Position numbers and translations under genes: made by a program. Positions 44,850-64,000 of a stretch of DNA of 64,000 nt are shown here, piece by piece (position 1 is the stretch's first letter; the number at the start of each line of letters is the position of its first letter). The stretch spans positions 1 through 64,000 of the forward strand of contig NZ_BAGH01000612.1 of NCBI RefSeq assembly GCF_000308715.1, given 5' to 3'. Under the pieces are notes generated by a model. It ran no database searches. It was not told where the DNA came from and was given only the letters and a program-made list of their open reading frames with translations. Source of the DNA: Nocardia tenerifensis NBRC 101015 (GTDB lineage Bacteria > Actinomycetota > Actinomycetes > Mycobacteriales > Mycobacteriaceae).

Positions 44850-45113
44850 ATGGACGACGATCAATCTGGCGCGGAAAACGAAGATTCAAAGGCGAGGTTT
44901 GGAACCGCGGATAAACCGACGACGCGGGCGGACGTGTGCGAGTTGGCAACTCCCGCAGAGACTGCCAAATATCTGCGGACCACCGTCGGCAAGCTTGCCA
45001 ACGACCGGCACCTCGGCGTCGGGCCGCGCTATATGAAGTATGGCCGCAGTGTTCGCTATCCGTGGCGTTGCTTACGGGACTTCGTGGAAGAGAACATGTC
45101 CGGCGATCGGTAG
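44850..45113 (+). CDS. xis: Excisionase-type winged HTH protein
   Basis: 87 residues. ELATPAETAKYLRTTVGKLA is the recognition part of an HTH_17/MerR-like excisionase fold, followed by the wing GPRYMKYGRSVRYPW and a C-terminal helix. Such proteins bind and bend attachment-site DNA and shift the integrase toward excision. It lies directly upstream of the integrase, the usual order in actinobacterial integrative elements. A GAGGGGG tract precedes the start. Confidence 0.8.
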   Translation: MDDDQSGAENEDSKARFGTADKPTTRADVCELATPAETAKYLRTTVGKLANDRHLGVGPRYMKYGRSVRYPWRCLRDFVEENMSGDR

Positions 45114-45240
45114 TGCTGCGTGCGCAGAGGCCCTATGGCAATCATGCAGTTACTGCCGATGGTCTTTTGTGCATGTTCTGGATTTCCTACGCTCTCGCTG
45201 CACGGCACAGCTGAATGTTGGTGCCTGGCAGCCAAGGTGA

Positions 45241-45450
45241 ATGAGTGAGTGGGAAGGGGCAGGAAAATGCCTAGACAGGCGCCGCAGCCGGGGGATCCGA
45301 GCGAGGCAGGAGCCCGACCTTTGTCTCAGCGCCGCTGCGATCGAGGATGCCCATCGGCCGACCCTGAAGACACTGCACAGTACTCGTGCCACCCAGTGGG
45401 CGGAGGCTTGCGGTGTTCCGGCTCCGCAGTTGAGAACAGGGCGGTGGAGT
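45241..45450 (+). pseudogene. C-terminal remnant of a second tyrosine integrase
   Basis: In frame with the integrase and running into it without a stop, 45355-45435 encodes PTLKTLHSTRATQWAEACGV and then PAPQLRTGRW. This closely mirrors the catalytic C-terminus of the adjacent integrase (TPRTLRSTRATRVAEKYKLP, AARLILGH). It lacks the rest of the protein and the catalytic Tyr. I read it as a fragment of an earlier or duplicated integrase, not as the N-terminus of the present one. Confidence 0.55.
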
Positions 45451-46791
45451 ATGTCGCAGATTGACCTGGAGCCGGGGGTCCCAGGGAAGTTCAGCGAACC
45501 GAAGTGGAGTGAGTCGCGTCAGACGTACCAGATCCATTGCCTCGTCGGTGAGCCGTTCGGTGACCCGACGAAGGTCCACGCCTCCGGGAAGTCGAAGCCG
45601 AAGGCCGTCGCGAATCTGAAGAAGAGAGTCGCTACGTGGAAACCGAAGGCCGAGTCTCTTGGCGTGTACAGCTCGAACGTGACGGTCGAGGAGTTGTGCC
45701 TGGCGTGGCTCAAGCTGTACGAGCACGACGACAAGAAGCGCCCGCAGAACGCCAAACACTATCGGAGGGAGATCAATCCGGCGACGAAAGGTCGTGGGAA
45801 ACATGACAAGATTACGATCTCAGGTTCTGTGCTGGGGAAAATGAAGGCGTTGGAGGCCAGGCCGTTCCACATCCGCATCCACCTGGAGCAGATGAACGGA
45901 ACCGCGTACAAGAAGGCCCGCCAGAAGTCGATCCTGCGCAACGCGTTTCAGATGCTTGTAGACGACGGTCTCCGCGACGACAACCCGGTAAACAGTGTGC
46001 CGGGGAACAAGGGCACTCGGACGAAGACCGTCGTCAACCGGAGCCGCGTGCGCACTGGCGTCAACCCGTACTTCTCTGACGAACCTCAGCCGTTTACGGC
46101 GAACGAGATGAACTGGTATCGGGAGGCGGAGCGCGATTACTTCCCGCGCCCGTTGGCGTGCCGTTGGTTTGAGCAGCGCTATCTGGACTTCACAACCTTG
46201 GCGTACGAGCTTGCTGCGCGCCCCAGCGAGGCGCTCGCCGTCCGGTTCGACGACATCGACTTCGATCTGGGCGAGGTCGCTGTCACCGGAACAATCGTCG
46301 ATACCGAGCTCCGCGTGCATCAGGTGAAAAGTATCGTCGAGCAGTACGGACTCCCAGACGACGAGATCGTGTACCCACGCGGCTGGCCAGATTTCGACAA
46401 CGAGGACGTGGTCTGTTTGGCGTATCGGCAGCCGTTCACGAAGACAGCGAAATCGATGCGGACGATCAAGGTTGGCGGCGATTGTATGGCGATGCTGCGG
46501 CGACGGAAGATCGCGGCTAAGCCGCGGCATCGCCTTGTGCTCCCTTCGCGAACAGGGAAGGTGGTGCGGTCGGAGCAGATGTCGCTGACTTGGGCCAAGA
46601 TCGTTCGCGGAACCGGTCTGGAGTGGTCGACACCGAGAACGCTGCGCTCGACCCGTGCGACCCGTGTCGCCGAGAAGTACAAGCTCCCGGCCGCTCGCCT
46701 CATCCTCGGGCATGAGGAGAACTCGCCTGTGACAGCCCGGCACTACGTCCCTGACGAGCGGATGGTTGTCGACTTGGCCGATGCACGGTGA
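45451..46791 (+). CDS. int: Tyrosine-recombinase integrase
   Basis: 446 residues from the ATG at 45451; in-frame upstream sequence looks like a remnant. An N-terminal arm-binding domain and a SAM-like core-binding domain precede the catalytic domain, with Arg257 in AARPSEALAVR, Arg396-TL-Arg399 in place of the usual His-xx-Arg, LGHEENSPVT, and nucleophile Tyr432 in ARHYVPDE. It integrates and excises the element at its attachment site. The attachment site should be just downstream, but no tRNA gene is visible there. The His-to-Arg change at the first box position occurs in some active actinobacterial integrases. Confidence 0.85.
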   Translation: MSQIDLEPGVPGKFSEPKWSESRQTYQIHCLVGEPFGDPTKVHASGKSKPKAVANLKKRVATWKPKAESLGVYSSNVTVEELCLAWLKLYEHDDKKRPQNAKHYRREINPATKGRGKHDKITISGSVLGKMKALEARPFHIRIHLEQMNGTAYKKARQKSILRNAFQMLVDDGLRDDNPVNSVPGNKGTRTKTVVNRSRVRTGVNPYFSDEPQPFTANEMNWYREAERDYFPRPLACRWFEQRYLDFTTLAYELAARPSEALAVRFDDIDFDLGEVAVTGTIVDTELRVHQVKSIVEQYGLPDDEIVYPRGWPDFDNEDVVCLAYRQPFTKTAKSMRTIKVGGDCMAMLRRRKIAAKPRHRLVLPSRTGKVVRSEQMSLTWAKIVRGTGLEWSTPRTLRSTRATRVAEKYKLPAARLILGHEENSPVTARHYVPDERMVVDLADAR

Positions 46792-47097
46792 CTCCCAGGG
46801 ATGCCGGCTGAGCCGCTCAAAACGGCCACAAAACAGCCACATGCCAGCTGATTCCACCGCTTTATGCAGGTCAGGATGGGTGGACGGATCCAATGGGCTA
46901 CACCGAGCCGATCCTGCACCGGCGTCGGCGGGAGGCCAAGGCGCTCAACTGCCTGTAGGTTGCTGTTCGAAAAGTAGGGTCTGACAGCGCTTTTCGGCTC
47001 GAGGCCCCGCACCGGAGAAATCCGGCGCGGGGCCTCTTTCGTCACTGGAGATCAGCTCGACATGTGATGCGGCGGGCGCGACGTCGAATCCGCCTCC
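46792..47097. other. Integrase downstream region, probable right border
   Basis: About 306 bases without a supported gene. It contains the hairpin at 47002-47035 and no tRNA or tmRNA 3' end that I can recognise. If the integrase follows the usual layout, the right attachment site is here; the matching left copy lies outside the window, so the core sequence cannot be read. Confidence 0.4.
47002..47035 (+). terminator. Hairpin terminator
   Basis: AGGCCCCGCACCGGA (47002-47016) pairs with TCCGGCGCGGGGCCT (47021-47035) with one mismatch and a 4-base loop, followed by CTTTC. A GC-rich stem plus T-rich tail is a plausible intrinsic terminator for the integrase transcript. Confidence 0.7.
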
Positions 47098-50000
47098 GTG
47101 TACGGTGCGATGGGGGAGGACGAGGACGGAACATTGGGTGAGCAGAATCGCAGGTTGCGGACGGTTCTGGATGAGATCGTGGCGTCCGAGGTCACCAGCA
47201 ATGCCTTGACTTTGCACGGCAGCGTTGAGCGGTTCCGCGCAGCGGGTTGGAGCGAACGTGCGGGCATGCTCCGCGCCGACCCGCAGCTAGTCGATCCGGT
47301 CGTCGTGAGGAGCCTGTACGGCCGAGATCTCGCCGCCGCACTGTATGTGGAACGGGCGGTCGAAGTCGGTGTAGAGCGGGCGGTAGAGGACAGTGCGATG
47401 CTGGCCGATTTTGATTCGGCCCTGCGGTCGAAATCGACGCCCCGACTTGTCGATACGGTTGTGCGAACTGTCTCCGAGATGCGCAATGGTCAAGTGAACT
47501 GGGTGCTGCCGCTGCTCGTGCAGGGGGTCACGGAAACGGCAGCGAGATGCAGCGATCCCGAACTTCGCCGAGCGTTCGTATTCGTCATTGCGCGCGCCGC
47601 AGGCGTGGACGAGGCATGGGTCTATGCAGTCTTGGAACTGGCGGACGACCCTTCCGGAGTTACCGGAGCCGACCTCGCGCGCTTCGAAGGCCATTTCGGT
47701 GAGGTGGCGGCAGCGGCCGAGGTCGCCGAAAACTACGTGACGACATTCGGCCTCGGCCGCGACCGTGAGCGCGCGGTCGGCGAGATGACTGGGTTGCTCT
47801 GTGCCGCACGCGATCGGGGGACTGCGGCGGCACTAGACGAGTATCGCCTAGTCGTCCGCGCCCGATCGCTAGCCTCCTCGGAGCGGATAGGTCCGGAGTT
47901 GTACAGCGAGCTCGAGGATCTGCTCGGTGAATTGATCAGCGGCTACGAAGCCGACGGGGCAGTGTGGCTGCTCGGCGCTGCGCTACCGCTCGGACGTAGG
48001 GCGATGCGCGAGGTACCCGCCGATGATTCGCGGTATGCGGAGGTGATCTCGGCGGTGAGCTCGGTCATCTCGGACCAGGTGGACCGTGGCGACCGGCCTG
48101 CGGATCACATGGTTGAGGCATTGACTCTGGCGCGGGAGTCGGTGCGGTTGTGCGACGAGAAATCCCCTGCCCGAGCGCGTTTCGAGTCCAACCTCGGCTA
48201 TCGGATCGGTGTGGCGGTTGAGACGGGTGTTTTGGCGGCCGACTCCCTACGAGAGGCGGTGGATTGGCTGGAGAAGGCGTTGTCTCGAACCGAACCCGGT
48301 GATCCGAATTTGCCGTGGCGCTTGTCGAGATTGAGTTCTCATCTGTGCCAAGCAGTCTGGGCGATGGTCATGCCGGTGGAGGAACTGACGACTGCCGTCC
48401 GGTACGCTCGGGCGGCCACTATGTTGGTCGAGCCCGATGATCCGGATAGACCGGCGTTTGTGATGCTCGAGTGCAACGCGATCTCGCGTGCGATCGACGC
48501 CGGTTTACACGACGCCGACGAGCTGGTCGATGCGATCCGTGCGGCAGAAGCCGCAGTCATGGCGACTTCAGACCATCATCCGGACAAGATTTCCCAGATG
48601 GCCAACCTCGGTAGTCTGATCGCGGAAGGCTGGGCTGCGGGACGGTGCGATCAGGAACAGTTGCGCACCGCACTGTCGCTACAAGAGGCCGCGCTGGCCG
48701 GCACCGAGGTCGACAGCCCCTACCGGGCCTCACGCATGGACAACCTCTCCGTGCGCATCTCGGCAGCAGTGTCGAGCGGAATCGTCCCGGCTGCGGAGAT
48801 GATTCGAGCGATGGAACTCGGTTACGGTGCGGTTGCCGCTACCGAGGAGGGACATCCGGATCGGGTGGGATTCCTCGCCAACCTGTCGGCCACGCTGTTC
48901 ACCGCTGCCCAGGTGGGGATCGTAGAGCAAGACGATCTGTGGATCGGCGCCGAGCTCGCGCGGCACGCACTCGACGGCACGCCGGAAACCTATGCAGCAC
49001 TTCGCGCGTCGCGAGCCGGTACCCTTGCGAGCCTGCTGGCCGAGCTCGATGAAGGGTATCTGCCCGAGGCAGTGGAACGGGCCGAGGACGCGGTGCGCCT
49101 TTGTGGTGCCGAGGATCCTGACCGGGTGCTGTACATCTCCACACTGAGCAGCATTTTGGTCGACGCCGTACGCGCTGGACTCGTGGCGAGCGACAGGCTG
49201 GTCGAGGCCCTGCGACTGGCTCGCGAAGCGGAGGCCGTTACCCCTCGCGGCCATCCGGAGCACCATATCAACAGATCCAACTTGGCTGCGGTGATCGCGG
49301 AATGTGTACGGGCCGGCATCGTTGACGATGTCGATTTCGGTGAAGCGGTAGACCTTTCGCTCGACGTCCTCACGATGCTTCCAGTTTCCGATCCTGACCG
49401 CGCTCGTTGTGTCACGAACTTGGGCCTCATCCTCAACGATGCAGTGCTGCACCGAACGCTGTCCGAGCAAGATGCTGCGCAGACGATGATCGAGCTGATC
49501 GATGAGTTCTGGAACTGGGCCAGGCACGGTGCGCCGAGTCCGGACCAACGCGCCCATGCGCTGACGGTCAGCGAGGGTCTGATTGCTACCGCTGTTCCTC
49601 TCGTGCTGGCGGGCGCGGGGGCACGTGAGGCGATACGCGCCGCAGAAAGTGTCCGCCACTGCCTCGTCGACGCGCGGAACGCGCCATTCCTACCCGACCT
49701 TCCCGGTCACGAATTGGAGGTAGCACGGTATCGGGTCGCATCCGCTGAATATTCTCGCGCGCAGCGACACTTCGAGGAAGACTTCGGCGACGCGCGCGAC
49801 ACGACCAGAGCGGCCACGCTGCTCGCCGAAGCTGTCGAGACGATCCGCGACATCCCGGGGATGAGCGAATTCGGCAGGCGGCCCCAAATCCAAGACCTGA
49901 TCAGAGATCTGAACCCAGACACGCGGGCGATCTATCTGGTGACCCACTCCAGTGGCGGCACAGCTTTGATCCTGGAACCGAGTGGCGAGGCTTTCTCGAT

Positions 50001-50970
50001 CGAATTGCCAGACCTAGACGAAGCGACTGTGATCACACAAATCGGGCATCTCCTCGACAGCCCGGACAATGCGATCGATACCGCTGCCTGGCTGTGGATC
50101 GCCGTGGCAGCGCCGCTGATCGAAAAACTCGGCATCGACAGCGCATGGGTGATCGTCCCCACCGCGCACACCGCAATGTTGCCGTTGCACTCGGCAGGCC
50201 TGGTGAACGGACCATGGCTCGACCATCTCGTCGAGGTCCGGACGCTTCCGACATTGCGGCACCTTTCCGCAGTCACCGCGCCCCGGGCCGATGGAGTGCC
50301 GACGATCGCGATGAGTAGCGCGCCCGACCTCGCCTTCCTGAAGGGAGACTGTGAGGTGACCCGTGGCTTCTTCCCGGATGCCGTGAGCCCCATCGGCAAA
50401 GAGCCGACCACGGTGGATTGGGCTCTCAACAACCTCGCCGAAACAAGCTGTGCCGTACTAGGTGGGCACGCACGTTACGACTTCGAAGACGGAGTGTGCC
50501 TGGATCTCGACGACGGAGCACTCACCGCGGCGTTGCTGGACCGCCTACCACGGCGTCGACGTGCGATTGCGATCGTGACGGCATGCTCGTCGGCGCAAGT
50601 CTCCACCACATTCATCAACGAAACTATCGGTCTGCCTTCGGCATTGCTCCAAGCCGGCTTCCGCGGGGTTTGCGCGAGCATGTGGCCAGTGGATGACCCG
50701 GTCGCTTTCGTCACCATTGGACGATTCCTGCAATTGCACACAAGCGACCCGCAACGCGCGGCCGCTACTGTGCTCCGCGACGTTCGACACTGGCTGCACG
50801 CGGTCACGACCCGCGATCTGCGTCGATGGTTCGCCGAACTCGATGACCAGATCGGATTCTCAGAAGCCCTCAGCACCGAATTCGACGATTGGCTGGCCGT
50901 GCACGGTCCCCGCGCCCGGCCGTTGCGAGATCCGGTGCACTGGGCTGCATTCGCCTACATCGGCCGATAA
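47098..50970 (+). CDS. TPR-rich CHAT (caspase-like) protease
   Basis: Up to 1290 residues; the start is uncertain (GTG 47098, ATG 47110 or a later TTG at 47134), as no clear ribosome binding site is seen. About residues 200-950 are degenerate TPR-like repeats, each with a (L/A)xxAVxxxxxxGxxPDRxxxLxNL pattern. The C-terminal CHAT domain has the His of LGGHARYDF (His1124) and the Cys of IVTACSSAQVS (Cys1163), an intact caspase-type dyad. CHAT proteases with TPR sensors act as effectors in conflict systems. Here it is followed by SLATT and nucleotidyltransferase-like genes. Confidence 0.85.
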   Translation: MYGAMGEDEDGTLGEQNRRLRTVLDEIVASEVTSNALTLHGSVERFRAAGWSERAGMLRADPQLVDPVVVRSLYGRDLAAALYVERAVEVGVERAVEDSAMLADFDSALRSKSTPRLVDTVVRTVSEMRNGQVNWVLPLLVQGVTETAARCSDPELRRAFVFVIARAAGVDEAWVYAVLELADDPSGVTGADLARFEGHFGEVAAAAEVAENYVTTFGLGRDRERAVGEMTGLLCAARDRGTAAALDEYRLVVRARSLASSERIGPELYSELEDLLGELISGYEADGAVWLLGAALPLGRRAMREVPADDSRYAEVISAVSSVISDQVDRGDRPADHMVEALTLARESVRLCDEKSPARARFESNLGYRIGVAVETGVLAADSLREAVDWLEKALSRTEPGDPNLPWRLSRLSSHLCQAVWAMVMPVEELTTAVRYARAATMLVEPDDPDRPAFVMLECNAISRAIDAGLHDADELVDAIRAAEAAVMATSDHHPDKISQMANLGSLIAEGWAAGRCDQEQLRTALSLQEAALAGTEVDSPYRASRMDNLSVRISAAVSSGIVPAAEMIRAMELGYGAVAATEEGHPDRVGFLANLSATLFTAAQVGIVEQDDLWIGAELARHALDGTPETYAALRASRAGTLASLLAELDEGYLPEAVERAEDAVRLCGAEDPDRVLYISTLSSILVDAVRAGLVASDRLVEALRLAREAEAVTPRGHPEHHINRSNLAAVIAECVRAGIVDDVDFGEAVDLSLDVLTMLPVSDPDRARCVTNLGLILNDAVLHRTLSEQDAAQTMIELIDEFWNWARHGAPSPDQRAHALTVSEGLIATAVPLVLAGAGAREAIRAAESVRHCLVDARNAPFLPDLPGHELEVARYRVASAEYSRAQRHFEEDFGDARDTTRAATLLAEAVETIRDIPGMSEFGRRPQIQDLIRDLNPDTRAIYLVTHSSGGTALILEPSGEAFSIELPDLDEATVITQIGHLLDSPDNAIDTAAWLWIAVAAPLIEKLGIDSAWVIVPTAHTAMLPLHSAGLVNGPWLDHLVEVRTLPTLRHLSAVTAPRADGVPTIAMSSAPDLAFLKGDCEVTRGFFPDAVSPIGKEPTTVDWALNNLAETSCAVLGGHARYDFEDGVCLDLDDGALTAALLDRLPRRRRAIAIVTACSSAQVSTTFINETIGLPSALLQAGFRGVCASMWPVDDPVAFVTIGRFLQLHTSDPQRAAATVLRDVRHWLHAVTTRDLRRWFAELDDQIGFSEALSTEFDDWLAVHGPRARPLRDPVHWAAFAYIGR

Positions 50971-51078
50971 GGCGCTGGCGCCGCATAAAAGAAATCGTTT
51001 GCGCTGCAATCGATCTCGGTGCCATCAGCGCTCTATGGCAAGTGACGAGCTAGGATACTTGCGCAGGTAGGGGTGACA

Positions 51079-51573
51079 ATGGGCGATATGCGGAGTCGTT
51101 TCGAGGTCGAGGCCGAGCAGTTGATCAGCGATCTGTTGTACACCGAGAAGGCACACTTCGCGTCGGCCGAGTCCGCTCAACGGTTCCACCGCAGTCTGGG
51201 GGGAGCGGCTGCGGTAGCAGGCGCGGTCGCGGCGGCCGCAGTTGTTTCCGAATGGTCGCCCTCGCTCGCGGCTATCGCGGCACTTGCGGCCAGCGCCTCC
51301 TCCGCGGTGCTCACCCTGGTGAACCCTCAGGAGTCTGCGCAACAACATCTGGACACCGGCCGTTCCCTGGCCGCTTTGCGAGCCGAGGTGCGCCAAACCC
51401 GGGATTTGGATCTGGACCCGGAGTCCTCGGTGCCGCTGCCCGAGGTGCGAGAAGCGTTGCGGCGGTTCGCCGATCGGAAATCGGAGATAGATCGTGGCGC
51501 ACCGGGCTTGCAGGAGCGGCCGTTCCGTCGAGCTCAGGCCAAGGTGGCCAGGGGTGACTTCAAGGTCGGCTAG
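51079..51573 (+). CDS. SLATT-type two-TM effector protein
   Basis: 164 residues, ATG at 51079 after AGGGGTGACA. A helical N-terminus (ISDLLYTEKAHFASAESAQR) leads into two adjacent membrane helices (about 40-58 and 62-80). A long helix containing NPQESAQQHLDTGRSLAALR comes next. This is the layout of SLATT proteins (SMODS and SLOG-associating two-TM effector), predicted to form pores or disturb the membrane when activated by a nucleotide signal. It stands between a CHAT protease and a nucleotidyltransferase-like gene, which fits that role. Confidence 0.75.
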   Translation: MGDMRSRFEVEAEQLISDLLYTEKAHFASAESAQRFHRSLGGAAAVAGAVAAAAVVSEWSPSLAAIAALAASASSAVLTLVNPQESAQQHLDTGRSLAALRAEVRQTRDLDLDPESSVPLPEVREALRRFADRKSEIDRGAPGLQERPFRRAQAKVARGDFKVG

Positions 51574-53996: not shown

Positions 53997-56285
53997 TCAC
54001 TGGTCGGAGTCAGTCAGGTCGATCTGCCATTGTCCAGACCGATGCCTGCGATAGGTCAGGGTCAGGATCGGCTGTCGCTGGTTCGGCACGATGGTCAAGA
54101 GAGCGGTGTTGCCGAGGATGGCCACCGCGCCGCGCTGGTCCTCGGTAGCGGGGCTGTCCTCGGCGTACGCCGCTCTCGACTGTTCGATCCAGTGCGAGCG
54201 GGATATCGCGGAACGGCTTTCTCGCGTGAGGTATTGGTCGTATACCGCGCCGTATTCACCATTGCGTACGTGGTCGCGGACTCGCGCTCGCGTGTGATCG
54301 AGCATTTCGAGGTCGTTGTCTCGGTTGCGGCCCGCCCAGCGCAGCTGGGTGAGAGCGTGCCACGCCGCACGTTTGATGTTCATCGGTCTGACGGTTCGAG
54401 GCATGCTTCCGGAGACGAGCCATCGGCGGAGATCGGTGTCTTGCGAGCGACGAGATTCCGAAGCTGGTGTGTGTAGCCGGCCCTTCGCCCGGCCGACGAG
54501 TTCAGCGCCGACCTGGGCGACCATCGCGCGGTAGGTGTGATCGTCGCGTCGATCCGCGGCGACCAGGACTGGACGGCCATCGGGTCCGAAGTACACGCCG
54601 AGCACGGCGCGGGTGTGCGCCGCCGCGGCACGTAGCAGCTCGGCCGCGGTACCGGTCGCGGAAGCCAAGAGCACCAGCCGGTCCCAAACTTCGTCCTCGG
54701 GTATCGGGGGAATGACGAGAAGGCACTGGCCTAGTTGTCCGAGCGTGGCCATTGTGCGGAGTTCGTCGTCGGATCCCGGGCTGCGGCCCACTATGACGAC
54801 CGTGAGCACTGGTGCGGGATCAATCGACCTCACCGCCGCCCGCCAGTCGTCGCGGCTGTGAAACTCGCGGGCGATGTCGGCCTCGGGCGGGTGATTATCC
54901 GGGTCGACTCCGGCGTGCACCGGCCCGAATTGCCACAGGGCCCATGTGAGTACCGATTCGAAGCGCTCGAACGGGAGTGTAGCTGCGGCTTCGGCGGGAT
55001 CGGCGATGGCGCAGCGGTGGGTGCGTATTTGCCGCGCTGCGTCGAGGGATGACCGGAATAGCAGTACCGGCGGTCGGTCGTCGGCCTCCATCCGGACGGC
55101 CGCCTGCAGCACCGCCACTGCTTTCGTCCAGCGCAACGGGCGATCGATATACCGAATTGCGCGTTGTAGAAGGAACAGCAAAACCGGTGCGGCGATGAGG
55201 TACAAGGGCCGTCCGAGGACGAGCAACCACAGCGAGACAGCGAGCAGGACGGTGCACACCGCAACGACAACCATCGCACCGGCCGTTCCCGCCATCGCCA
55301 TCAGGAACGCGCCCTTGCTCGGCCGCCGGCGGGCACGGTAACCCCGCAGTGCGATGTCAGCCAGCAGCACCACCGTCACGATCACGGGAGTCGTGACGTA
55401 GAGGAGCACGATCGAACGGAACAGTGCGAGTTGCCCGATGATCGCCAGGGTTCCGAGCACGGCGGTGACCCCGGCAAGTGCCGCGCAGCGTATCCGTGCG
55501 TGTCGGCGCAGTCGGGCGGCTTCTTCGGATATGTCTCGGATCGGTACCGATGGCACTGGCTCGGCAAAGACTCTCCTGTTCGAAATCCGTTCCAGGAGTG
55601 CGGTATCGCGGAGGTTGACGTACCCGAGCAGGAGCAATGCCAGCAGTGGCATGCTGATTGCGTAGGTGACGGCGCTCGTCAACCACGTACCGACCGCCGA
55701 CCTGTTGTCCGAGAGATCTGCGGAATCCGGTAGCTTGCCCAGCTGCGCCGAGATTGCCCGCTGCAGTATGGAATCCGGGTGTTCCGGCTCGCCGGCGGCG
55801 GAGGGCAGGGTGGTGGTCAGGAAGACGATGACCTCGACTCGGCCTCGTACCGCGTTCGCGAAGAGGGTGTGTCTTCCGTTCTCGTCGCGCATGCGCACCC
55901 GGGTACCGGGTGAGTAGCCCGGTGTCGGTTCGCCTGAGCCACGGAGTGTCTCTGCCCAACGGTTGCTGGTGAATTCGATCATCCGGATGTGCAGTTCGGT
56001 GGTGCCCGCGGTGAAGTAGCGATCCCAGCCTTGCCGGGTGTTGTCCTGGACGTAGAGCGACAGAGGGTCGTCCGATGGCAGCGCAGCGGCGGCGTCGAAG
56101 CGGCGTTCCGACGAAGGCTGGAACCGGAACTCGTCGGTCGACACCTCGGTGCTGTCGACGGTCAGTGCGCGTAGATCGAGAAGCGGTTCCGCCGCGGCCG
56201 CGGCCGACGCGGAGAGGCTGAGAAAGCCGGTAACGATGACTGCGATCCTGACGACCAGACGCGCTGCCGGGCTGAACACGGTCAT
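53997..56285 (-). CDS. Multi-TM protein of the CHAT operon
   Basis: 762 residues; ATG overlaps the Clp N-domain gene stop (ATGA). A signal peptide or anchor (10-32) is followed by an extracytoplasmic domain of about 165 residues. Five membrane helices come next (about 200-222, 267-286, 290-312, 328-352, 358-374), then a 380-residue cytoplasmic domain. That part contains VLTVVIVGRSPG and LGQCLLVIPPIPEDEVWD and looks alpha/beta, but no catalytic motif is evident. It is the last gene of the operon and could be the membrane target, substrate or executor of the CHAT proteases. No family recognised. Confidence 0.65.
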   Translation of the reverse strand: MTVFSPAARLVVRIAVIVTGFLSLSASAAAAAEPLLDLRALTVDSTEVSTDEFRFQPSSERRFDAAAALPSDDPLSLYVQDNTRQGWDRYFTAGTTELHIRMIEFTSNRWAETLRGSGEPTPGYSPGTRVRMRDENGRHTLFANAVRGRVEVIVFLTTTLPSAAGEPEHPDSILQRAISAQLGKLPDSADLSDNRSAVGTWLTSAVTYAISMPLLALLLLGYVNLRDTALLERISNRRVFAEPVPSVPIRDISEEAARLRRHARIRCAALAGVTAVLGTLAIIGQLALFRSIVLLYVTTPVIVTVVLLADIALRGYRARRRPSKGAFLMAMAGTAGAMVVVAVCTVLLAVSLWLLVLGRPLYLIAAPVLLFLLQRAIRYIDRPLRWTKAVAVLQAAVRMEADDRPPVLLFRSSLDAARQIRTHRCAIADPAEAAATLPFERFESVLTWALWQFGPVHAGVDPDNHPPEADIAREFHSRDDWRAAVRSIDPAPVLTVVIVGRSPGSDDELRTMATLGQLGQCLLVIPPIPEDEVWDRLVLLASATGTAAELLRAAAAHTRAVLGVYFGPDGRPVLVAADRRDDHTYRAMVAQVGAELVGRAKGRLHTPASESRRSQDTDLRRWLVSGSMPRTVRPMNIKRAAWHALTQLRWAGRNRDNDLEMLDHTRARVRDHVRNGEYGAVYDQYLTRESRSAISRSHWIEQSRAAYAEDSPATEDQRGAVAILGNTALLTIVPNQRQPILTLTYRRHRSGQWQIDLTDSDQ

Positions 56286-57784
56286 TGGTGGATTCCCGCC
56301 AAGGTCAAGGCGGCGGCGGTGAGTTTCTGTTTCGCGCCGTCGGGATCGACCTCGGCAAGCTGACCCCAGAGCCGCACTGCCTCTTCGGCTGCCACCCTGA
56401 CGATGTCGGCGTCGAGTCCGTTGCGAGCGTGGACAATGGCTAGTCCGTGCACGGCATTCGCGAGTTCCGGCAGCCACCTCCCCGGGGTCGCCGACTCCAG
56501 CAGGCGGAACTCCGCCACCGACTCGGACACCAGGGCCGCTGCCTGCTCGGCCGCGCGCCCTGGAGGCATACAGCGGCCGAATGTTCCCGCGCACCGGGCG
56601 TGCAGTCCCCGCAACTCAGGAGTCGAGCCCGCACCGAACTCACGAGTGATGTGGTACGCCGTCCGGGCGGTGGTGAGCGCCTCCACGCCGCGGCCGGTGA
56701 TGTTGGCGCACTCGGCCAAGGTGCACAGGGCGCGGGCACGGAGTGTGGGCCCGGTGCTGTCCTGGAGTGCGCGGACAGCCGCCGAGGCGGTGTCGTAGGC
56801 AGTCGCCGTCGCACCCGAGTCGCGCAGATAAATGGCAGTGTCACAAAACATTTCGGTCAGTGGCGGTGTGCTGCCGTCCGCGTGGCGGCGATAGTGTCGG
56901 ACGAGCTGGCCCGCGATCTCGACGGCGTCGTCGTGGCGTCCGCAGCGGTGGTTTCGGGCGGCCAAGACGCGTCTGGATTCGATCCAGACGCTGGTGAATC
57001 GATCGGAGTCCGCCTTCGCGAGACGTTCGTGGATCGCGGTGGCTTCAGCCGCCATTTCGAGAGCGTCGATGGCTCGTCCTGTTCGAGACATCAGGTCACT
57101 CGCGGTGCACAGGGCGCGGGCTAGTGCTGGAAGGCCTCGGCTCGGATCGGCTGAGGCCCGTTGCCGCAATGTTGGGATGGCCTCCTGGACGATCCGTGCC
57201 CACGGCTGTCTCGGGTCGCGTACCCGGGGCACGTCGGCCCGCCGGGTGCGGCGATCCCGCATCGCTACGAGGAACGTCTCCGGCGACTGTCCGGGTGCCA
57301 CGGGCGCCGCGATCGCACCTCTCGTCCGAACGATGTCGATTGCCGCCCGGCGATTCAACTGAGTGCGAGCGCTTTCCGGCACGACTCCGCGCTGCAGCAG
57401 CGCATCCGCCGCAACGGACCGGCCGTCCCGCAGCAGCCCGAGCAACAGGTGCTCGGCCCCGAGCGCGGGGGCTCCGGCGTCCTGGAAATCCCCGTGCGCG
57501 AGCCGGAGGATCCGCTTCAACCGGCCCGCCATCGGGATCTGGGCGCCGTCGTCTTGGGCAGGGATTGAGCCAGGCCCGCGCGAACCGAGGAGCGCGCCGC
57601 GCAACTCGGTCGGATCTACTCCGCTCGCGGCGAGAAAGGTGGTGACGCCGAACGCCTCAGCGCGAGGGTCGAGCAGGGCCAGCATGAGGTGCTCGCCTTC
57701 GATGGCGTCATGGCCGAGTTCGCCGGCGTACTGCTGGGCGAGGACGATGGCGCGCCGTGCCCAGGGGTCGAAATCATCGAACAA
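56282..57784 (-). CDS. Clp N-domain protein with TPR-like C-terminus, no AAA+ module
   Basis: 500 residues from a TTG preceded by AAAGGCAGG and overlapping the CHAT-gene stop by 11 bases. Residues 1-145 form a double Clp_N repeat: ARRAIVLAQQYAGELGHDAI with EGEHLMLALLD, then LKRILRLAHGDFQDAGAPAL with GAEHLLLGLLRDG. ClpA/ClpC use this domain to bind substrates and adaptors. Instead of ATPase domains the rest is helical and TPR-like. It may recognise substrates for, or regulate, the neighbouring CHAT proteases. Confidence 0.8.
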   Translation of the reverse strand: MFDDFDPWARRAIVLAQQYAGELGHDAIEGEHLMLALLDPRAEAFGVTTFLAASGVDPTELRGALLGSRGPGSIPAQDDGAQIPMAGRLKRILRLAHGDFQDAGAPALGAEHLLLGLLRDGRSVAADALLQRGVVPESARTQLNRRAAIDIVRTRGAIAAPVAPGQSPETFLVAMRDRRTRRADVPRVRDPRQPWARIVQEAIPTLRQRASADPSRGLPALARALCTASDLMSRTGRAIDALEMAAEATAIHERLAKADSDRFTSVWIESRRVLAARNHRCGRHDDAVEIAGQLVRHYRRHADGSTPPLTEMFCDTAIYLRDSGATATAYDTASAAVRALQDSTGPTLRARALCTLAECANITGRGVEALTTARTAYHITREFGAGSTPELRGLHARCAGTFGRCMPPGRAAEQAAALVSESVAEFRLLESATPGRWLPELANAVHGLAIVHARNGLDADIVRVAAEEAVRLWGQLAEVDPDGAKQKLTAAALTLAGIHQ

Positions 57785-60782
57785 GGTCGGCCTGCCTTTC
57801 CGCTGCGCACGGAACACCCTCGCGGGTGAGCGTTCCGACGCCGAATCCGTAATAGCAGTAGCTCTGCCAAATGAGCGGGCGCACCGGTTGCCCGCACCGC
57901 GTGGCGTGCAATGCCGCGCGCTGCCGGTCGCCGACGACGGTCCACGGACTACCACTCGCGGCCATCGCCTCGACCAGTTCGTGGTCGAAGTCGGTGGTCT
58001 CAGCGGAGTCGGGGACGCAGTACCGGGTGGCGACGATGTGCCGCGCGCCCGCCATCGAGCAACCGATCGGGAACCCGATCCACTCGGGGTTGGTGCGCAA
58101 TCCGAGGCGCCCGTCCGGACTGGCGCCCGAGCGCAGTGTCCCGATGTCCGCGCCGAGACTCTCGCATGCCGAGACGACCAGCCGATCGGGCATGGGGTAC
58201 CGGAATCCGATTTCTCGCGAACTCAACAGATCACCCGCGGCGAGCGGACCATCAGCGAGTTGAATGCCTGCCGTCGCAGGCCTGCCCGTGGCGCCCGGGT
58301 CGCCGTGGCAGACAAAATAGGCGACTCCCGGTGCACCGCAGCCGATTTCACGCAGAGCCCGGCCGAGTGCCGCGCTGCCCACGTCGTCCGCCAAGACTTG
58401 CTCGGCGGCGTGGGGCGGTCGGGCGTGCTTGATCCGGCCGGTCGGTCGCGGATCCGGTGCGACGACCGCGAGCAGGACCGGTACCTGCGCGACGCGGGGT
58501 GCGGAATCTGTGGTCAGGCAGGCTGATTGCGCCACCACCGGCCACGGCGGCGGGGTGATCAAGTCGGCTCGTTCGATCACCCGGAGAGGGTCCATGGAGC
58601 GCGGATCGGTGGTTTGATCTTGGACCGGAAGCGCGGCGAAGGGGACCGCTGTCAGCAGTCCGGTGAAGCCGATCACGAGCGTGAGGTGCCCGGAGGCTTC
58701 GAGCAGTCCCAGCCGGAGTGGGGGTGGCAGCAACAGCCGTGAGACCGGTTCCAGCACCTCGATTCGGCCGATCGCGTCATAGTCCCGGGGCGTGGCGAGG
58801 GTCCGGATATCGGGAACCGCGTCGAGCAACTGCTTCAGTGCATGTTCGGTGGCGCCATGCAGTGGAGTGCGCTGGAAACTCCAGGTTCCGGATGGATCAC
58901 GTAGCGATGTCCACAGCTCACCTGCGACGATAGCGCCCGCTAAATACCACGTTGGAGCTGGGGAGAACGTCTCCAGACAGGTCTCGATATCGATGGCAGC
59001 GAACTCCGCAGGGCCGATCCAGGAGGAACCGTCGATCCGCAGCCGGGCAGGTGGCTCGATGAGGTCGGCGCCGAGTGCGGCCGCGCCGATACCGGACCCG
59101 TCGGCCGGGTCGGTTTCGCCACCTGCGCCGGACGAACCGAGCGCGATGGTAAGCAGGGACGAGCGGTTGTCCGAGTCGTCCTCGCGGCGGTGTTCCGGAA
59201 CCGGCTGCGAGCGGATCAGTTCGAGTACCTCCGCCACCGCCACCACGTCACCGGCGCGGGCGGCGGTGTCGAGCGCCAACGCGTAAACCAATTCGATACT
59301 CCCGGCCCAGTCGTTTCGCCAGCGGCTGGCGGGGAGCCGAAAGCGCAGCCGCTCCGATTCCCGTATCGCCGTGAGAACCCGGGCGAGCACCTCGTCCAGC
59401 GGTGTGCCCATACGGTGTCCCGCTCTTGCCCATTCGTAGTACGCGGAGACCGTCAGAGCGGTGTTCGGGTGATCGGCCAGCCGGATCAGCGCCTGCTGGA
59501 CTTGATATTCGGCCTCCGCAGGGTCGCCGTCCGGCCGCTCCAGTTCTGCGTGGGCGCGGAACAGGTGACCGGAGACATGGTCATCGGATGTCCAGCTGAG
59601 CGACAGGCGGCCGTTGTCGGCATCCAGCGGGTAGAGCAGGCTGCGCCGGAATCCGTCGAGATTGCCGTGCTCCAGCATCATTCCCAGCAGAATGAGTTCG
59701 GTCCAGTTCAGTTCGGCGGTATCGGCTCGCCGGATCGCGCGTGCCCGAATGGCCATCAGTTCGTCCATCGCGGCGTCGAAATCACCGCGCGCGGTCCGCA
59801 CGGCGACGATCTGGTGCCGGGCGTGGGTGGCTACCGCATCGGCCGCGCGGCCGCGTGCATGGCGCAGCGCCGCAGTGAAGGCCTGCAGTGCCTCCTCCTG
59901 TCGGTGGGTGGCCAAATAGATCTCGCCGCGCGCCAAGTGGACCACGGCGGTGGTGCGCGAGGTATTGCCGGTCAGCGTTTCGGCCTGCCGCAATGCCAGC
60001 AGCGCGCGTTCTGGACGACCCACCCGAACATTGGCGACCGCTTCCGCGGCGAACATCGCGGCTTGCACCGAATTATGTTGCGGGCCCGCGAATTCGATGA
60101 ACTCCAGCGACTTGGCGGGATCGCGGGAAAATGCCGATTCGACAGCGATCGAGACATCGGACCACTGGCGCGGGCGGACCAGCCGACGCCACCGCGGCAT
60201 TACGCTGCCCGCGTGAGGCGCGGGAGTCACCAGCCCGGTCGGCAGTGCCGATTTGTGCAGAAACATCCAGTAGTGCTGCAAATACAGCATCGGCACCAGC
60301 AGCCACCAGGTTTTCCAGTCGATCACCATCGCGACGGCGACGATGAGCGCCGGCAGCAATTTGGCTGCGAGCATCGCCCGGAGGAAAGCGCGTTCGGCCG
60401 ACAGGAAGAGCCCGGCGACCGCGACCAGCCCGATCTGCACCATGGGAATGTCGAGCAGGTAACCCACGCCGAAAAGAAGCGCTGTCGTGAACACGCGGGC
60501 GGCGACATCACGCATGGAGTCGCGCAGCAGAACCCGATGCACATCGACGAGATGATCGCCGAGTCGCTGCGCGGTGCCTCCGGTTCCCGTCCTTGTCCGA
60601 TGGTCGGCGAAGAGCCGCCGCGTGGACCACCAGGATGGCAGTACTCGGGGCAGGTGCCATGGCTGGGTGGTGAGTGTGTACCAGAGTTCGTAGGTCGAGA
60701 AGTGGTCTTCGAACGGCACGATGTTGCGATGGGCGAGCGTATCCGCCAGTTCCTGCGACACGCCCCGCTGCTCACCCGTCAT
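57774..60782 (-). CDS. Membrane-anchored TPR-CHAT protease
   Basis: 1002 residues. An N-terminal cytoplasmic stretch is followed by three to four membrane helices (about 94-110, 114-128, 138-172). A TPR region at about 200-480 comes next, and the CHAT domain occupies the last 400 residues. The catalytic pair is visible as His826 in YFVCHGDPGATG and Cys873 in VVSACESLGADIG. CHAT proteins cut specific partners after activation; with a membrane anchor, the cleavage should occur at the inner face of the membrane. It overlaps both neighbours by 11 bases. Confidence 0.85.
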   Translation of the reverse strand: MTGEQRGVSQELADTLAHRNIVPFEDHFSTYELWYTLTTQPWHLPRVLPSWWSTRRLFADHRTRTGTGGTAQRLGDHLVDVHRVLLRDSMRDVAARVFTTALLFGVGYLLDIPMVQIGLVAVAGLFLSAERAFLRAMLAAKLLPALIVAVAMVIDWKTWWLLVPMLYLQHYWMFLHKSALPTGLVTPAPHAGSVMPRWRRLVRPRQWSDVSIAVESAFSRDPAKSLEFIEFAGPQHNSVQAAMFAAEAVANVRVGRPERALLALRQAETLTGNTSRTTAVVHLARGEIYLATHRQEEALQAFTAALRHARGRAADAVATHARHQIVAVRTARGDFDAAMDELMAIRARAIRRADTAELNWTELILLGMMLEHGNLDGFRRSLLYPLDADNGRLSLSWTSDDHVSGHLFRAHAELERPDGDPAEAEYQVQQALIRLADHPNTALTVSAYYEWARAGHRMGTPLDEVLARVLTAIRESERLRFRLPASRWRNDWAGSIELVYALALDTAARAGDVVAVAEVLELIRSQPVPEHRREDDSDNRSSLLTIALGSSGAGGETDPADGSGIGAAALGADLIEPPARLRIDGSSWIGPAEFAAIDIETCLETFSPAPTWYLAGAIVAGELWTSLRDPSGTWSFQRTPLHGATEHALKQLLDAVPDIRTLATPRDYDAIGRIEVLEPVSRLLLPPPLRLGLLEASGHLTLVIGFTGLLTAVPFAALPVQDQTTDPRSMDPLRVIERADLITPPPWPVVAQSACLTTDSAPRVAQVPVLLAVVAPDPRPTGRIKHARPPHAAEQVLADDVGSAALGRALREIGCGAPGVAYFVCHGDPGATGRPATAGIQLADGPLAAGDLLSSREIGFRYPMPDRLVVSACESLGADIGTLRSGASPDGRLGLRTNPEWIGFPIGCSMAGARHIVATRYCVPDSAETTDFDHELVEAMAASGSPWTVVGDRQRAALHATRCGQPVRPLIWQSYCYYGFGVGTLTREGVPCAAERQADLVR

Positions 60783-62207
60783 TTCTATTCCTGTTCTCGG
60801 ACCGGAAGGATTCGAACAGCACCGGCCGAATCCACCGTCCGAACAGGGTTCGGGTCATGTCCGAGGAAAGGTCCTTGGTTCGAACATCCGGATAGCCTGA
60901 ATCGGCCCGGCGCAGCCGGACCTCGAACACAAGCGCACAAAGCTGCAACAGCGCGTTCACCGCCACGACGGCTTTGAGCGGTGCCGGGGCCTGGAAGCAG
61001 ACGCCAAGCATCAAGAACGTCCAGGGTTTCCAACCCAGGAGACTGGGCCTGGTGGCCATGGCGACCGGAATAAACAGCGTCAACCACGATGCGCCGTGCA
61101 AGATCTCGTATCCCGCGAATAGCCATCCCACCACGTAGCAGCAGAGCTGGAGGTAAAGCAGTTGCATCTCGCGCGCGCCGAGCGCGTAGGACAAGCGGGT
61201 GACATCGGAGGTGAAGGCCAGGGCCCTCGCCATGCCGCCCTTGTGCCGGGTGATCGGGCGCACAGCCTCCGGAATTACAGGCACCTCGATGCCGACGGTC
61301 GGTCGCGGGCCCGGGTCGGTGAGCCGGTGGACTCGGTCGAACTCGGCGATGGCGCCGCGGCGGACGTTGTAGTACGCGCTGGCGAGAGCGGTTCTGCTGC
61401 CTGCCGCGGCACGGAAGACGTCGGAAAACCGGTCCTGCGGTGAGATCGTCATGGCGGCGGCTCGAAACAGGTCCGCGGTATCGACCGGTCGTCCGGTGCG
61501 CTCGAACTGTTTGCGCGCGACGACGAGGTAGTCGCGCAACTCCGGACTCCACGAAGTGCTGTTACCCGCCTCGGCCGGCTCGGTCATCTCGTCGAGGAGT
61601 TCGCGCAGCGGTTCGATCTCGACCCACAGATCGGCCAGCATGGCGTGCGCGGCCGACCCCGCCAGTCCAGGGCTGAGCAGAGCCGCCAGTAGATGCATTG
61701 CGCCTGCTTCGTGTCCGCCGAGGCGGGCGATCCGGTATGCGGCGGGAGTGCCTCGGTCACGGCGCAGGTGCTCGCCGCGCCGGGGAGCGCCGCCTCCGCG
61801 GCGACCAGGCATTCGCCCGAAAGCGGATCGAAGCCGTGGTCGGTCAGGACTCGCGCGACCCGATGGTCGGCGAAGTAGGCCGCCCAGAGATAGTCCGCGG
61901 TGATTCGACTGGTGTATCCGAAACGGATACTGAGCCAAGCCATTCTGAGCTCCGGATCGACCGGGAGAAGTTGAGGACTCGCCGTAACCAGCTCCGCGCG
62001 TAGCGATTCCGGCGGGACGTCGATGGCGCCGAGCAACGCCGCGGCGGTCTCATCCCAGGCTGTCGCGGTGGTCGCGGCGAACGCGACGTGCAGCCAGTCG
62101 ACAGGCTGGGCGAGTTCGCCCGCGATTGTCGTCGCCTCGAGTGCGACCCGCGATTCCACGGAGGCCGGACCGAGCCGCGTGTCGGCCAACCGGGGGAGCG
62201 TGATCAT
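60772..62207 (-). CDS. Clp N-domain membrane protein, apparent frameshift
   Basis: The gene should start at the ATG 62207, which overlaps the upstream small membrane gene (ATGA). The frame from there encodes MITLPRLADTRLGPAS and a Clp_N-like repeat (RVALEATTIAGELAQPVDWL), but turns non-coding after ALPP near 61,735. Another frame continues with AYRIARLGGHEAGAMHLLAA, the second Clp_N repeat. It then has a helical region and about four membrane segments (LLYLQLCCYVVGWLFAGYEI and later), ending at 60772. A one-base shift joins them into about 478 residues. Either a sequencing error or a true frameshift. Confidence 0.65.
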
Positions 62208-62539
62208 TCGCGTGGCCCCCCGCCGCTCCGCACCGGCGGCGATGTGGAGGCGGCGACTATGTGGTTGCCGCTCATCACGTTCGCTGTCTCTGTCTTCCCG
62301 TTCATCGCCAGGAAGACCAGGAAGAATGCAGTCATTCCGAGCGCAAGACCGATCGAGTACCACGCGAACGCGCGGCCGGCCGAGTCATAAAGGGTGGTAG
62401 CGGTGCCGCCGCCGATAGCTCCGATGACGGCGGTCAGATCTGTGATCGCAGCCTTATCGGCCGTCCTGACGAGGGTGCGGTAGGTGATGCAGCCGACCAC
62501 CGTACCGAACACCAATGCCCCGAATGCGATGAGTGTCAA
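62204..62539 (-). CDS. Small membrane protein of the CHAT operon
   Basis: 111 residues from a TTG that overlaps the CHAT-gene stop (TTGA). It has an N-terminal helix (LTLIAFGALVFGTVVGCITY) and a central hydrophobic, Gly-rich stretch (ITDLTAVIGAIGGGTATTLY). A third helix follows (AWYSIGLALGMTAFFLVFLA), then a polar tail. Coupled by overlaps on both sides, so it is an integral part of the operon. No family recognised. Confidence 0.65.
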   Translation of the reverse strand: MTLIAFGALVFGTVVGCITYRTLVRTADKAAITDLTAVIGAIGGGTATTLYDSAGRAFAWYSIGLALGMTAFFLVFLAMNGKTETANVMSGNHIVAASTSPPVRSGGGPRE

Positions 62540-64000
62540 TGAATTTCCTTCTTGGTGAGGGAATCGGTGGTGGCGCGCAACCGGAGGTCGGCAAGGCCGT
62601 GCAGGGTGTAAGCGAGGCCCATGACATTGCCGCGTTGTAGGCCTGCCCAGCGCGCGCCGCGCAGCGCCACTCCCGCTGTGGCGCCGCGGGTGAGTTCGGT
62701 GAGCAGGAGAGCGCCGAACCAGCCCGCCATGCCCTGCTCGAGCGTGACCTCGGTGCCGATGAGTGCAGCGCCTTCGGCGCGCACGACGAACGACTCGACG
62801 AAATTCGACAGGGTCTCCGAGGTCAGCGCCGCGGTGTGACAGCCGTTCAGCATGATCAGAGGTTTTCTGTTGGGCCAGTGCGGGATCGGCCAGTGCTCTC
62901 GTCGCCAATTGCCGATGTCGAGGGGGTGCAGATACCTGCGGCCGAACTGCAACACGGTGCCGGGCCGAGCGAGCGGATGCGCCGAGGCGGACGAGTAGCC
63001 GCCATGGCAGTACAGGTAGACGATGTCCATCGACTCTTCGGCCAGCGCCTTTCCGAGGATGTCCAGATCGGACACCCGAAGGGTTTGCATAGTGCGTGCG
63101 CCCAGGCTGCCGACGAGGGTGACTATGTGCTGGTCGGTCGAGTTCGAGTCGAGGTCCGGGTCATAGGCCATGAAGACCGACATCGGTTCCGGTCGTCGGA
63201 GCACGGTGTCCACCGGGCTACTGGTGCTCGGCGGCTGTTCGATAACACAGGAAAGTCCCCAGAATCCGAACGGGCACAACACGGGTCCCCGATGATCCGG
63301 TTCCGGGCAGTGCGCGGGGATCGGCTCGCCATTGCCGCCTGGGCCGAATCGTCGTACCGACGGGCACACCGAGAACGGCACTTGCGGATCGCCCGGCATC
63401 GGGAGGTCGTACACCAGGGACCAGGGCACGCTCGGGGTGGCGGGATCGGTCGACAGCGCCGCGTCGGCAACACTCAGCACGACCGAGCGCGCTCGAGCAC
63501 GGCTCTCGTGCCGGATCAGGTCAGGAAGCGTGTCGAACAGTATGTTGTCCCGGAACAGCGCGGTGTAGATCTCGGCGCCGTGCCGGGCGAGGATCGCGAG
63601 ATCGGTACAGAAGTCCTTGTCCGTCTTGCCGTGCCGGGCGTCGAGCACGCAGAGCGGGCCGTCTTTCGAATCGAGCAGGTGGCGTTCGTAGAGCAGTTGA
63701 CGCGCCGAGCGTACGGCGTTGTTCGCCGCGGCCGGTGTTATCGAGACCGGGTTGTCCAGGAAGCTGAGCCCGTTGACGATCGCGCGTGCTCCTACTGCCG
63801 GGACGAAGAAACTCGCGAGCCTGCTGCGCAGCGGGCCGAGATCGGCGAAGGACTCGGTAAGCCGATAGAGCAGCCGTGCGTGCAGCCCGTCGTGTGTGTC
63901 GGTCGCCACTGGCAAGTGCAGCCGCTGGGCATGCACCGCGACCACCTCGTAGTAGATGACCAACTCCCCACCCCAGCCTGCATCCGGCTGTTCCGGGGTA
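62536..64000 (-). CDS. CHAT protease, N-terminus outside the window
   Basis: At least 488 residues are visible; the frame is open to the window end, so the start lies beyond 64000. The C-terminal CHAT domain carries the catalytic pair in IVYLYCHGGYSS (His) and LIMLNGCHTAALTSE (Cys). A stretch containing SLVYDLPMPGDPQVPFSVCP precedes it. This is the first visible gene of the operon and the second CHAT protease in it; unlike the other one it shows no membrane helix in the visible part. The stop overlaps the small membrane gene. Confidence 0.82.
   Translation of the reverse strand, partial: TPEQPDAGWGGELVIYYEVVAVHAQRLHLPVATDTHDGLHARLLYRLTESFADLGPLRSRLASFFVPAVGARAIVNGLSFLDNPVSITPAAANNAVRSARQLLYERHLLDSKDGPLCVLDARHGKTDKDFCTDLAILARHGAEIYTALFRDNILFDTLPDLIRHESRARARSVVLSVADAALSTDPATPSVPWSLVYDLPMPGDPQVPFSVCPSVRRFGPGGNGEPIPAHCPEPDHRGPVLCPFGFWGLSCVIEQPPSTSSPVDTVLRRPEPMSVFMAYDPDLDSNSTDQHIVTLVGSLGARTMQTLRVSDLDILGKALAEESMDIVYLYCHGGYSSASAHPLARPGTVLQFGRRYLHPLDIGNWRREHWPIPHWPNRKPLIMLNGCHTAALTSETLSNFVESFVVRAEGAALIGTEVTLEQGMAGWFGALLLTELTRGATAGVALRGARWAGLQRGNVMGLAYTLHGLADLRLRATTDSLTKKEIH

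Follow-up and report, generated by a model that had tools for sequence, protein, structure and literature searches.

ATP-driven unfoldases are known to carry Clp_N at their front end, and the Clp_N domains of ClpA and ClpC bind adaptors or marked substrates. Its partnership with caspase-like domains is known in outline, because three papers (PMC7159879, PMC8283722 and PMC8195603, as far as their accessible text goes) show the two meeting. In the available portions of these sources, Clp_N repeats accompany caspase-like effectors in the MoxR-vWA/FtsH ternary conflict systems, including those of actinobacteria (Kaur et al. 2020, PMC7159879), and Clp_N is an accessory domain in two cyanobacterial orthocaspases (473 studied; PMC8283722). 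The accessible account of Craspase describes its TPR-CHAT protease as opened allosterically via the TPR arm and as making a single cut in Csx30, a protein that holds a sigma factor inactive by binding it (PMC10028731). Here we describe an operon of Nocardia tenerifensis NBRC 101015 in which a Clp_N protein with transmembrane (TM) helices, Clp_N-TM, directly precedes a TM-TPR-CHAT protease, CHAT-B. The DNA analyzed (the window) comprises positions 1 to 64,000 of a 78,846-base contig, NZ_BAGH01000612.1, from a 9.73-Mb draft assembly of 614 contigs. The two-gene core recurs in several other actinobacteria and therefore looks like a real protease switch. We propose, with a probability of roughly one half, that it is a membrane-anchored, Clp_N-controlled, Craspase-like protease switch of a conflict or stress system, carried on a mobile-type island.

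Gene order in relatives brought the core into view. In seven of the eight loci with a full-length CHAT-B, Clp_N-TM lies directly upstream of the CHAT gene and overlaps it by 4 to 17 nt (by the starts chosen); these seven, from the window, Nocardia rosealba (G401), Micromonospora chokoriensis, G925, G1175, G1453 and G1495, span six genera and four families. The eight CHAT-B proteins are 21-43% identical in pairwise comparison yet the pairing has been kept, and it is therefore old. CHAT-B itself matches Pfam CHAT (PF12770) at E 1.4e-11, with 44.9 bits against a cut-off of 24, and His826 and Cys873 are aligned in all eight family proteins. No separate Clp_N-TM gene was found beside the protease of the eighth locus, G1216, which is 1389 aa long and has N- and C-terminal extensions. 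Its C-terminal extension is weakly Clp_N-like (Pfam 0.0046, under the cut-off; hhalign 21%, E 0.001), and its N-terminal extension had no significant Clp_N similarity and reached 0.2% against the Clp_N-TM profile. With the C-terminal part suggestive at most, a reading of this protein as a Clp_N-TM/protease/Clp_N fusion was dropped.

These loci came from sampled genome draws that overlap, and their counts must not be summed. The CHAT-B search returned its own gene and one spurious short match in the genus draw (98 genomes; the match, 81 residues in G094 at E 7.2e-4, was discarded), its own and two more among 397 genomes of the order draw, and its own only among 396 genomes of the phylum draw. 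Profile searches recovered the window gene, G1175 and G1216 from the class draw (394 genomes), 16 matches from the M. chokoriensis family (250 genomes; full-length only in G375 and G925), and full-length G1216, G1453 and G1495 with a partial G1447 from the G1216 family (180 genomes). Fourteen of those 16 matches, along with G1447, cover CHAT-B in part and were left out of the eight full-length loci. A contig scan via short peptide patterns found only the N. rosealba and M. chokoriensis loci. The partial, CHAT-only loci (L034-L047 and L083, some cut at contig ends) held no convincing Clp_N gene. Next after the CHAT gene of G1447 (L083:8294-11165), a small protein with one TM helix resembles EACC1 by eye, but it had no match in Pfam.

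A fold nearest to that of Craspase TPR-CHAT is plausible by arrangement for CHAT-B, given an AlphaFold2 model of low to medium confidence (mean pLDDT 58; TPR mostly 70-90, CHAT mixed at 29-85 per ten-residue block, TM part poor). Foldseek ranked Craspase TPR-CHAT first (7y83_D, E 8.8e-10, TM-scores 0.24/0.33) and the transmembrane anti-sigma factor DdvA second (8rot_A, E 2.8e-9), with separases also listed. In VIA-align 2, Craspase entries took ranks 1-11, and 8d9f_A aligned over 452 residues (Z 19.1, root-mean-square deviation 11.6, 13% identity in the aligned part, model residues 204-982); because the fold list also includes pure, unrelated TPR proteins with scores up to Z 16, and because the TM-scores are low, we take the match as one of arrangement only, a point that tells against a Craspase-like switch. 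By analogy, control of CHAT-B through its TPR part is plausible. When the CHAT-B profile was run against the sequences of solved structures, the single match was irrelevant (E 0.17).

A Clp_N character of the partner is suggested by its family. A Clp_N-TM family profile of seven rows matches the Clp_N profile at 94.2% (E 1.1e-7, 127 columns), and one of five rows at 94.5%; a control comparison with the TPR-CHAT profile gave 0.2%. In G1175, which has Clp_N repeats in both halves of one open frame, Pfam Clp_N (4.8e-12) falls in the same polypeptide as the family TM part (8e-21). The homologous gene is a single open frame in six other genomes, and in the window the reading passes from the frame 62207-61584 into another that ends at 60772. 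The second frame has one ATG at 61812 and another at 61698, within its first Clp_N helix; neither convinces as a start. The split may stem from mutation, from programmed frameshifting or from an error in the sequence, or there may be two genes.

The chain to which the core belongs runs on the minus strand from contig position 64638 to 53997, its 5' end lying beyond the window, in the order CHAT-A, small 2-TM protein, Clp_N-TM, CHAT-B, Clp_N-TPR and polytopic membrane protein. With predicted starts picked from overlap and ribosome-site context, the overlaps along it are 4, 4, 11, 11 and 4 nt (stop/start 62536/62539, 62204/62207, 60772/60782, 57774/57784 and 56282/56285). A preliminary description of six overlapping genes that might continue past 64000 is thus borne out in its outline and corrected in its parts: CHAT-A, the first gene, begins at 64638, the 111-aa 2-TM gene has been added, and Clp_N-TM is split. 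Where at least four membrane products had been counted, hydropathy gives five: CHAT-A, the small 2-TM protein, Clp_N-TM, CHAT-B and the last gene. We found no tandem repeats in the operon, no Rfam match at its stretch, and no CRISPR-like direct repeats at 52000-66000 beyond one two-copy 22-nt pair inside CHAT-A. Pfam gave no Cas family among the operon products, and the gRAMP/Cas7-11 gene and CRISPR array of type III-E were lacking. It also gave no FtsH/MoxR AAA+, vWA or ubiquitin-like (Ubl) domain among the window operon products or the scanned core and adjacent genes of relatives, and no sigma or anti-sigma family among operon products and relatives' core genes.

Table. Features of the operon and the surrounding island (window coordinates unless marked as contig)
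Feature	Position	Strand	Evidence
CHAT-B, 1002 aa: N-terminal TM helices, TPR, C-terminal CHAT	57774..60782	-	Pfam, conserved His/Cys, fold
Clp_N-TM, second frame: double Clp_N and TM helices, counterpart of conserved partner	60772..61755 (5' limit arbitrary)	-	
Clp_N-TM, first frame: weak Clp_N-like region a	61584..62207	-	hhalign, codon-position GC
Clp_N-TPR, 500 aa: double Clp_N followed by TPR-like repeats, lacking AAA+	56282..57784	-	
CHAT-A, 700 aa: 2 TM, unknown middle region, divergent CHAT	62536..64638 (window part 62536..64000)	-	
Small 2-TM protein, 111 aa, TTG start	62204..62539	-	hydropathy; constant CHAT-A neighbor
Last gene, 762 aa: N-terminal hydrophobic segment, extracytoplasmic stretch, five TM, ~390-aa C-terminal region, family unknown	53997..56285	-	
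Phage-type integrase, intact, island edge	45241..46791	+	Pfam Phage_integrase 3e-10
Direct repeat, ~164 bp	left 46896..47059, right contig 65586-65747	.	86% identity, E 1.8e-44
Third CHAT gene, 1290 aa, convergent to operon	47098..50970	+	Pfam CHAT 4.5e-13
2TM (SLATT-type) effector, 166 aa, after third CHAT gene	51073..51573	+	PADLOC 2TM effector 1.1e-26

The operon is composed of two modules, the Clp_N-TM/TM-TPR-CHAT core and a separate pair of CHAT-A and the small 2-TM protein; since the pair recurs elsewhere without Clp_N, the window operon unites what other genomes keep apart. The small 2-TM gene adjoins a CHAT-A homologue in nine of nine loci, preceding it in two. A second Nocardia, G034 (CHAT-A 48% identical), has the pair without Clp_N, as do seven of the 145 genomes searched in the M. 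chokoriensis family, and no Clp_N match was found in the eight other stretches that carry it. Junction with the core is seen in one of the nine CHAT-A loci and one of the eight core loci. CHAT-A alone has no Pfam match and lay outside the five matches of the CHAT search of its own genome; five of the seven homologues scanned pass the Pfam CHAT cut-off, and His545/Cys600 are invariant in all nine alignment rows. The CHAT-A family matches the CHAT-B core at 76% by hhalign (E 2.2e-5), against 0.6% for a two-row alignment, and an iterated profile matched the G034 homologue at E 3.9e-4, with CHAT-A itself then reaching only E 8.1. The short second frame of G894 (L092_7483_8742) was left out of the alignment, and L092 was outside the Pfam scan of homologues. 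EACC1 had no Pfam match in the window small 2-TM protein; across the recurring pairs (L092-L098, L075), this protein may form a pore or serve as an anchor.

Downstream of the core, Clp_N-TPR matches Pfam Clp_N (PF02861) in two stretches at E 2.1e-12, with 47.4 bits against a cut-off of 20.7, and NCBIfam ClpK/ClpG/ClpB matches cover the same part. A gene with Clp_N and TPR follows the core in three of the eight loci, those of the window, M. chokoriensis and G1495. The TM-TPR-Clp_N proteins of the latter two are related (6e-20), as is the TM-TPR protein encoded upstream in G1175 (2e-6); Clp_N-TPR of the window has the same make-up but no clear homology to them beyond Clp_N (E 0.011). A search of 58 other Nocardia genomes found no relative of the last gene. 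A comparison of its C-terminal part with solved structures returned WD-40 chains (to E 7.9e-33) through repeat summing over the same 33 residues and was set aside as spurious, and weak NCBIfam matches (SctY, YheU, PER) were likewise rejected as spurious.

Seen against these relatives, a single system of six genes, as had been suggested, is not supported, because the CHAT-A pair is independent elsewhere and the last gene is without relatives in the Nocardia genomes searched. The active sites described as intact keep the His/Cys pair in both families (8/8 CHAT-B, 9/9 CHAT-A). Two Clp_N proteins lacking an ATPase had been named: Clp_N-TPR is one by Pfam, and the other is a probable one by its family profile (94%), with no Pfam match alone. 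A lack of conserved gene order elsewhere would have counted against the preliminary reading; instead, an order shared with other actinobacteria was found for the Clp_N-TM/TM-TPR-CHAT pair.

What precedes the core varies yet recurs between distant genomes. N. rosealba and G1453 have a 245/246-aa protein there (45% identity; L012:12041-12781 and L081:6752-7489) with no Pfam match above the cut-off, M. chokoriensis and G1495 have a DUF6338 gene (E 1.2e-41 and 1.2e-39), G1175 has the TM-TPR protein, and G925 has a small TM protein whose match to EACC1 (E 1.1) is far below the cut-off. M. chokoriensis and G1495, although of different families, share the full order DUF6338, Clp_N-TM, CHAT, TM-TPR-Clp_N; the M. 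chokoriensis operon also includes a TPR gene after these. Immediately in front of this operon is an NB-ARC STAND-TPR gene (L013:2521-4866; Pfam NB-ARC 6.3e-6). In N. rosealba, the opposite strand carries, ~3-6 kb upstream of the core, a MoxR-like AAA_5 gene (6.6e-9) and a DUF2201 metallopeptidase with a VWA-like part (L012:16033-18542 for the two); the former reaches 0.0039, under the cut-off, against the ternary-system model bpMoxR. Neighborhoods thus differ, and the context is of conflict type in some loci only.

On the window contig, integrases and repeats bracket ~18.5 kb that contain the operon and the third CHAT gene. The small gene before the intact integrase (the two within 44850-46791) matches HTH_17 under the cut-off (0.00077), and decayed, rearranged integrase fragments lie beside the right repeat at contig 65100-65438. 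Judged by these repeats and integrases, the ~18.5 kb would be an integrated element or the remains of two; ARAGORN found no tRNA attachment site in the window or contig tail. The genes outside it are ordinary (DUF4192, NAD-binding dehydrogenase, FMN reductase). The 2TM effector gave the only PADLOC match seen among scanned proteins, to 2TM effectors of anti-phage systems, with Pfam DUF4231 just under its cut-off (4.1e-5), and could form a separate protease-plus-pore pair with the third CHAT protein. In L044 and L047, relatives of the third CHAT gene have further CHAT genes nearby. Past the island, contig 68850-73464 encodes a run of alpha-helical proteins, ESX/WXG100-like by eye; Pfam on two of them gave alpha/beta-hydrolase matches only, in one protein.

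Association of Clp_N proteins with the membrane CHAT protease is well supported by sequence. Clp_N-TM and TM-TPR-CHAT are probably translationally coupled and probably form one complex at the inner membrane face, with Clp_N-TM as putative receptor or adaptor, and the Clp_N proteins would gate or feed the protease. Free of an unfoldase, the Clp_N folds may bind a peptide or a marked protein and either deliver it to the CHAT site or shift the TPR arm so that the site opens, much as target RNA does in Craspase. The active protease would then cut a co-encoded or host protein; the products of the variable membrane genes (last polytopic gene, small 2-TM, DUF6338) are candidates for such substrates, or for effectors. 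The system would likely serve as an abortive response, of conflict type, to envelope stress or phage; stress signaling is a serious alternative. The island, the nearby 2TM effector and patchy presence suggest an anti-phage purpose, less certain than the complex itself. A broader version, in which Clp_N domains lacking an AAA+ unfoldase are the sensory or substrate-presenting part of a membrane caspase-like protease, in an ATP-independent immune or stress system with a two-gene core, exchangeable membrane effectors and perhaps a single polypeptide in G1216, we hold tentatively and at somewhat less than even odds.

Several further observations weigh against a Clp_N-controlled switch. Contact, cleavage and substrate would all be deductions from sequence. 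Codon-position GC (guanine-plus-cytosine) content changes frame at ~61780-61740, as in a split copy of Clp_N-TM; neither window piece matches Pfam Clp_N (PF02861), and hhalign of the single pieces against Clp_N is weak (first frame 6%, E 0.0061; second 11%, E 0.0029). Among the relatives' Clp_N-TM proteins, Pfam Clp_N is under the cut-off or absent in five of six, G1175 being the exception. The Clp_N-TM model (pLDDT 59) is confident in its TM helices and poor in its Clp_N half; with a best Foldseek E of 2.2, that half was uninformative. PADLOC gave no match for seven window proteins and two relatives (small 2-TM protein left out), nor for five core proteins of further relatives, and the plasmid and phage collections held no record with the CHAT-B protease. 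Finally, the neighbors in G925 and G1453 are housekeeping genes (thiolase, NUBPL/Mrp-type ATPase).

Other explanations are not mutually exclusive with this one, and their probabilities need not total one. The same housekeeping neighbors fit regulated proteolysis in stress or development, where the protease would sense an envelope or cytoplasmic signal via Clp_N and cut an anti-sigma factor or other regulator. The DdvA match and, in the available text on Craspase, the inhibition of a sigma factor by Csx30 point the same way. Because Pfam recognized no sigma or anti-sigma family in the operon or in relatives' core genes, and because patchy presence and the island fit a dispensable accessory system, we regard this explanation as unlikely, if still one to be taken seriously. 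The Clp_N proteins could also be adaptors of the housekeeping ClpC/ClpB, feeding CHAT or membrane clients to ClpP, with CHAT itself as a client. Clp_N matches, including long frames of ClpC/ClpB size and short Clp_N-only frames, do occur elsewhere in the window genome and in 17 of 17 other genomes scanned, but the invariant catalytic residues, the fixed order and the weakly Clp_N-like extension of G1216 would be left unexplained, and this possibility seems to us quite remote.

Many toxin-antitoxin pairs are adjacent, overlapping genes. An overlapping partner adjoining the protease upstream would suit Clp_N proteins that restrain it as antitoxins do, their release or loss killing the cell. A strict antitoxin should forbid a split Clp_N-TM beside an open protease frame, if the split is real, and G1216 shows no separate Clp_N-TM gene, so that restraint of this kind is improbable. 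The split also fits the view that the operon is decaying island debris in this strain, with a broken Clp_N-TM and no function, a view that the decayed integrase also favors. Yet the other operon frames are open and closely overlapping, six other genomes have the gene unbroken, in a single open frame, and a draft of 614 contigs may contain sequence errors; we consider decay as doubtful as restraint. If the Clp_N-controlled protease switch is real, the Clp_N fold could pick the substrates or signals of a protease that works without an unfolding motor. Prokaryotic caspase systems, whose triggers are in many cases unknown, would then gain a further type of sensor, in a core of just two genes present in culturable soil actinobacteria.

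Among known systems, Craspase TPR-CHAT (Csx29, type III-E CRISPR) is the best fold match and shares with CHAT-B a TPR part followed by CHAT with His/Cys. CHAT-B differs in its N-terminal TM helices and Clp_N partners, and no Cas7-11/gRAMP-like or Csx30-like gene was recognized among the operon products. The FtsH ternary systems, in the accessible account, center on an FtsH-type AAA+ protein and vWA, with Ubl conjugation added in the variant that bears Clp_N; the operon has none of these. The same account (Kaur et al. 2020, PMC7159879) describes an EACC1-caspase two-gene system in which the gene for a small TM protein lies 5' of one for a caspase-superfamily member, and which is similar also in being membrane-associated, actinobacterial and variable in its partners; its caspase domain is N-terminal, whereas CHAT in the window is C-terminal. 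The orthocaspases with Clp_N are cyanobacterial, and the available part of PMC8283722 describes no membrane operon for them. DdvA (PDB 8rot), a membrane protein that Foldseek matched to the CHAT-B model, is known here by its PDB title, with no literature on it among the matches listed. ClpC/ClpB N domains and bacterial Clp_N-only proteins share the double Clp_N fold, but in the operon Clp_N lacks an AAA+ ATPase and is joined instead to TM helices or TPR, and the protease with which it is coupled does not run on ATP. Searches of one open-access library yielded, among the papers listed, no description of the Clp_N-TM/TPR-CHAT pairing, in agreement with the preliminary description that no characterized system has this composition; that view needs qualifying in that Clp_N with caspase effectors has been reported (PMC7159879, in its accessible text). 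Clp_N and caspase-like domains are known together elsewhere, and this system has a constant two-gene core of its own.

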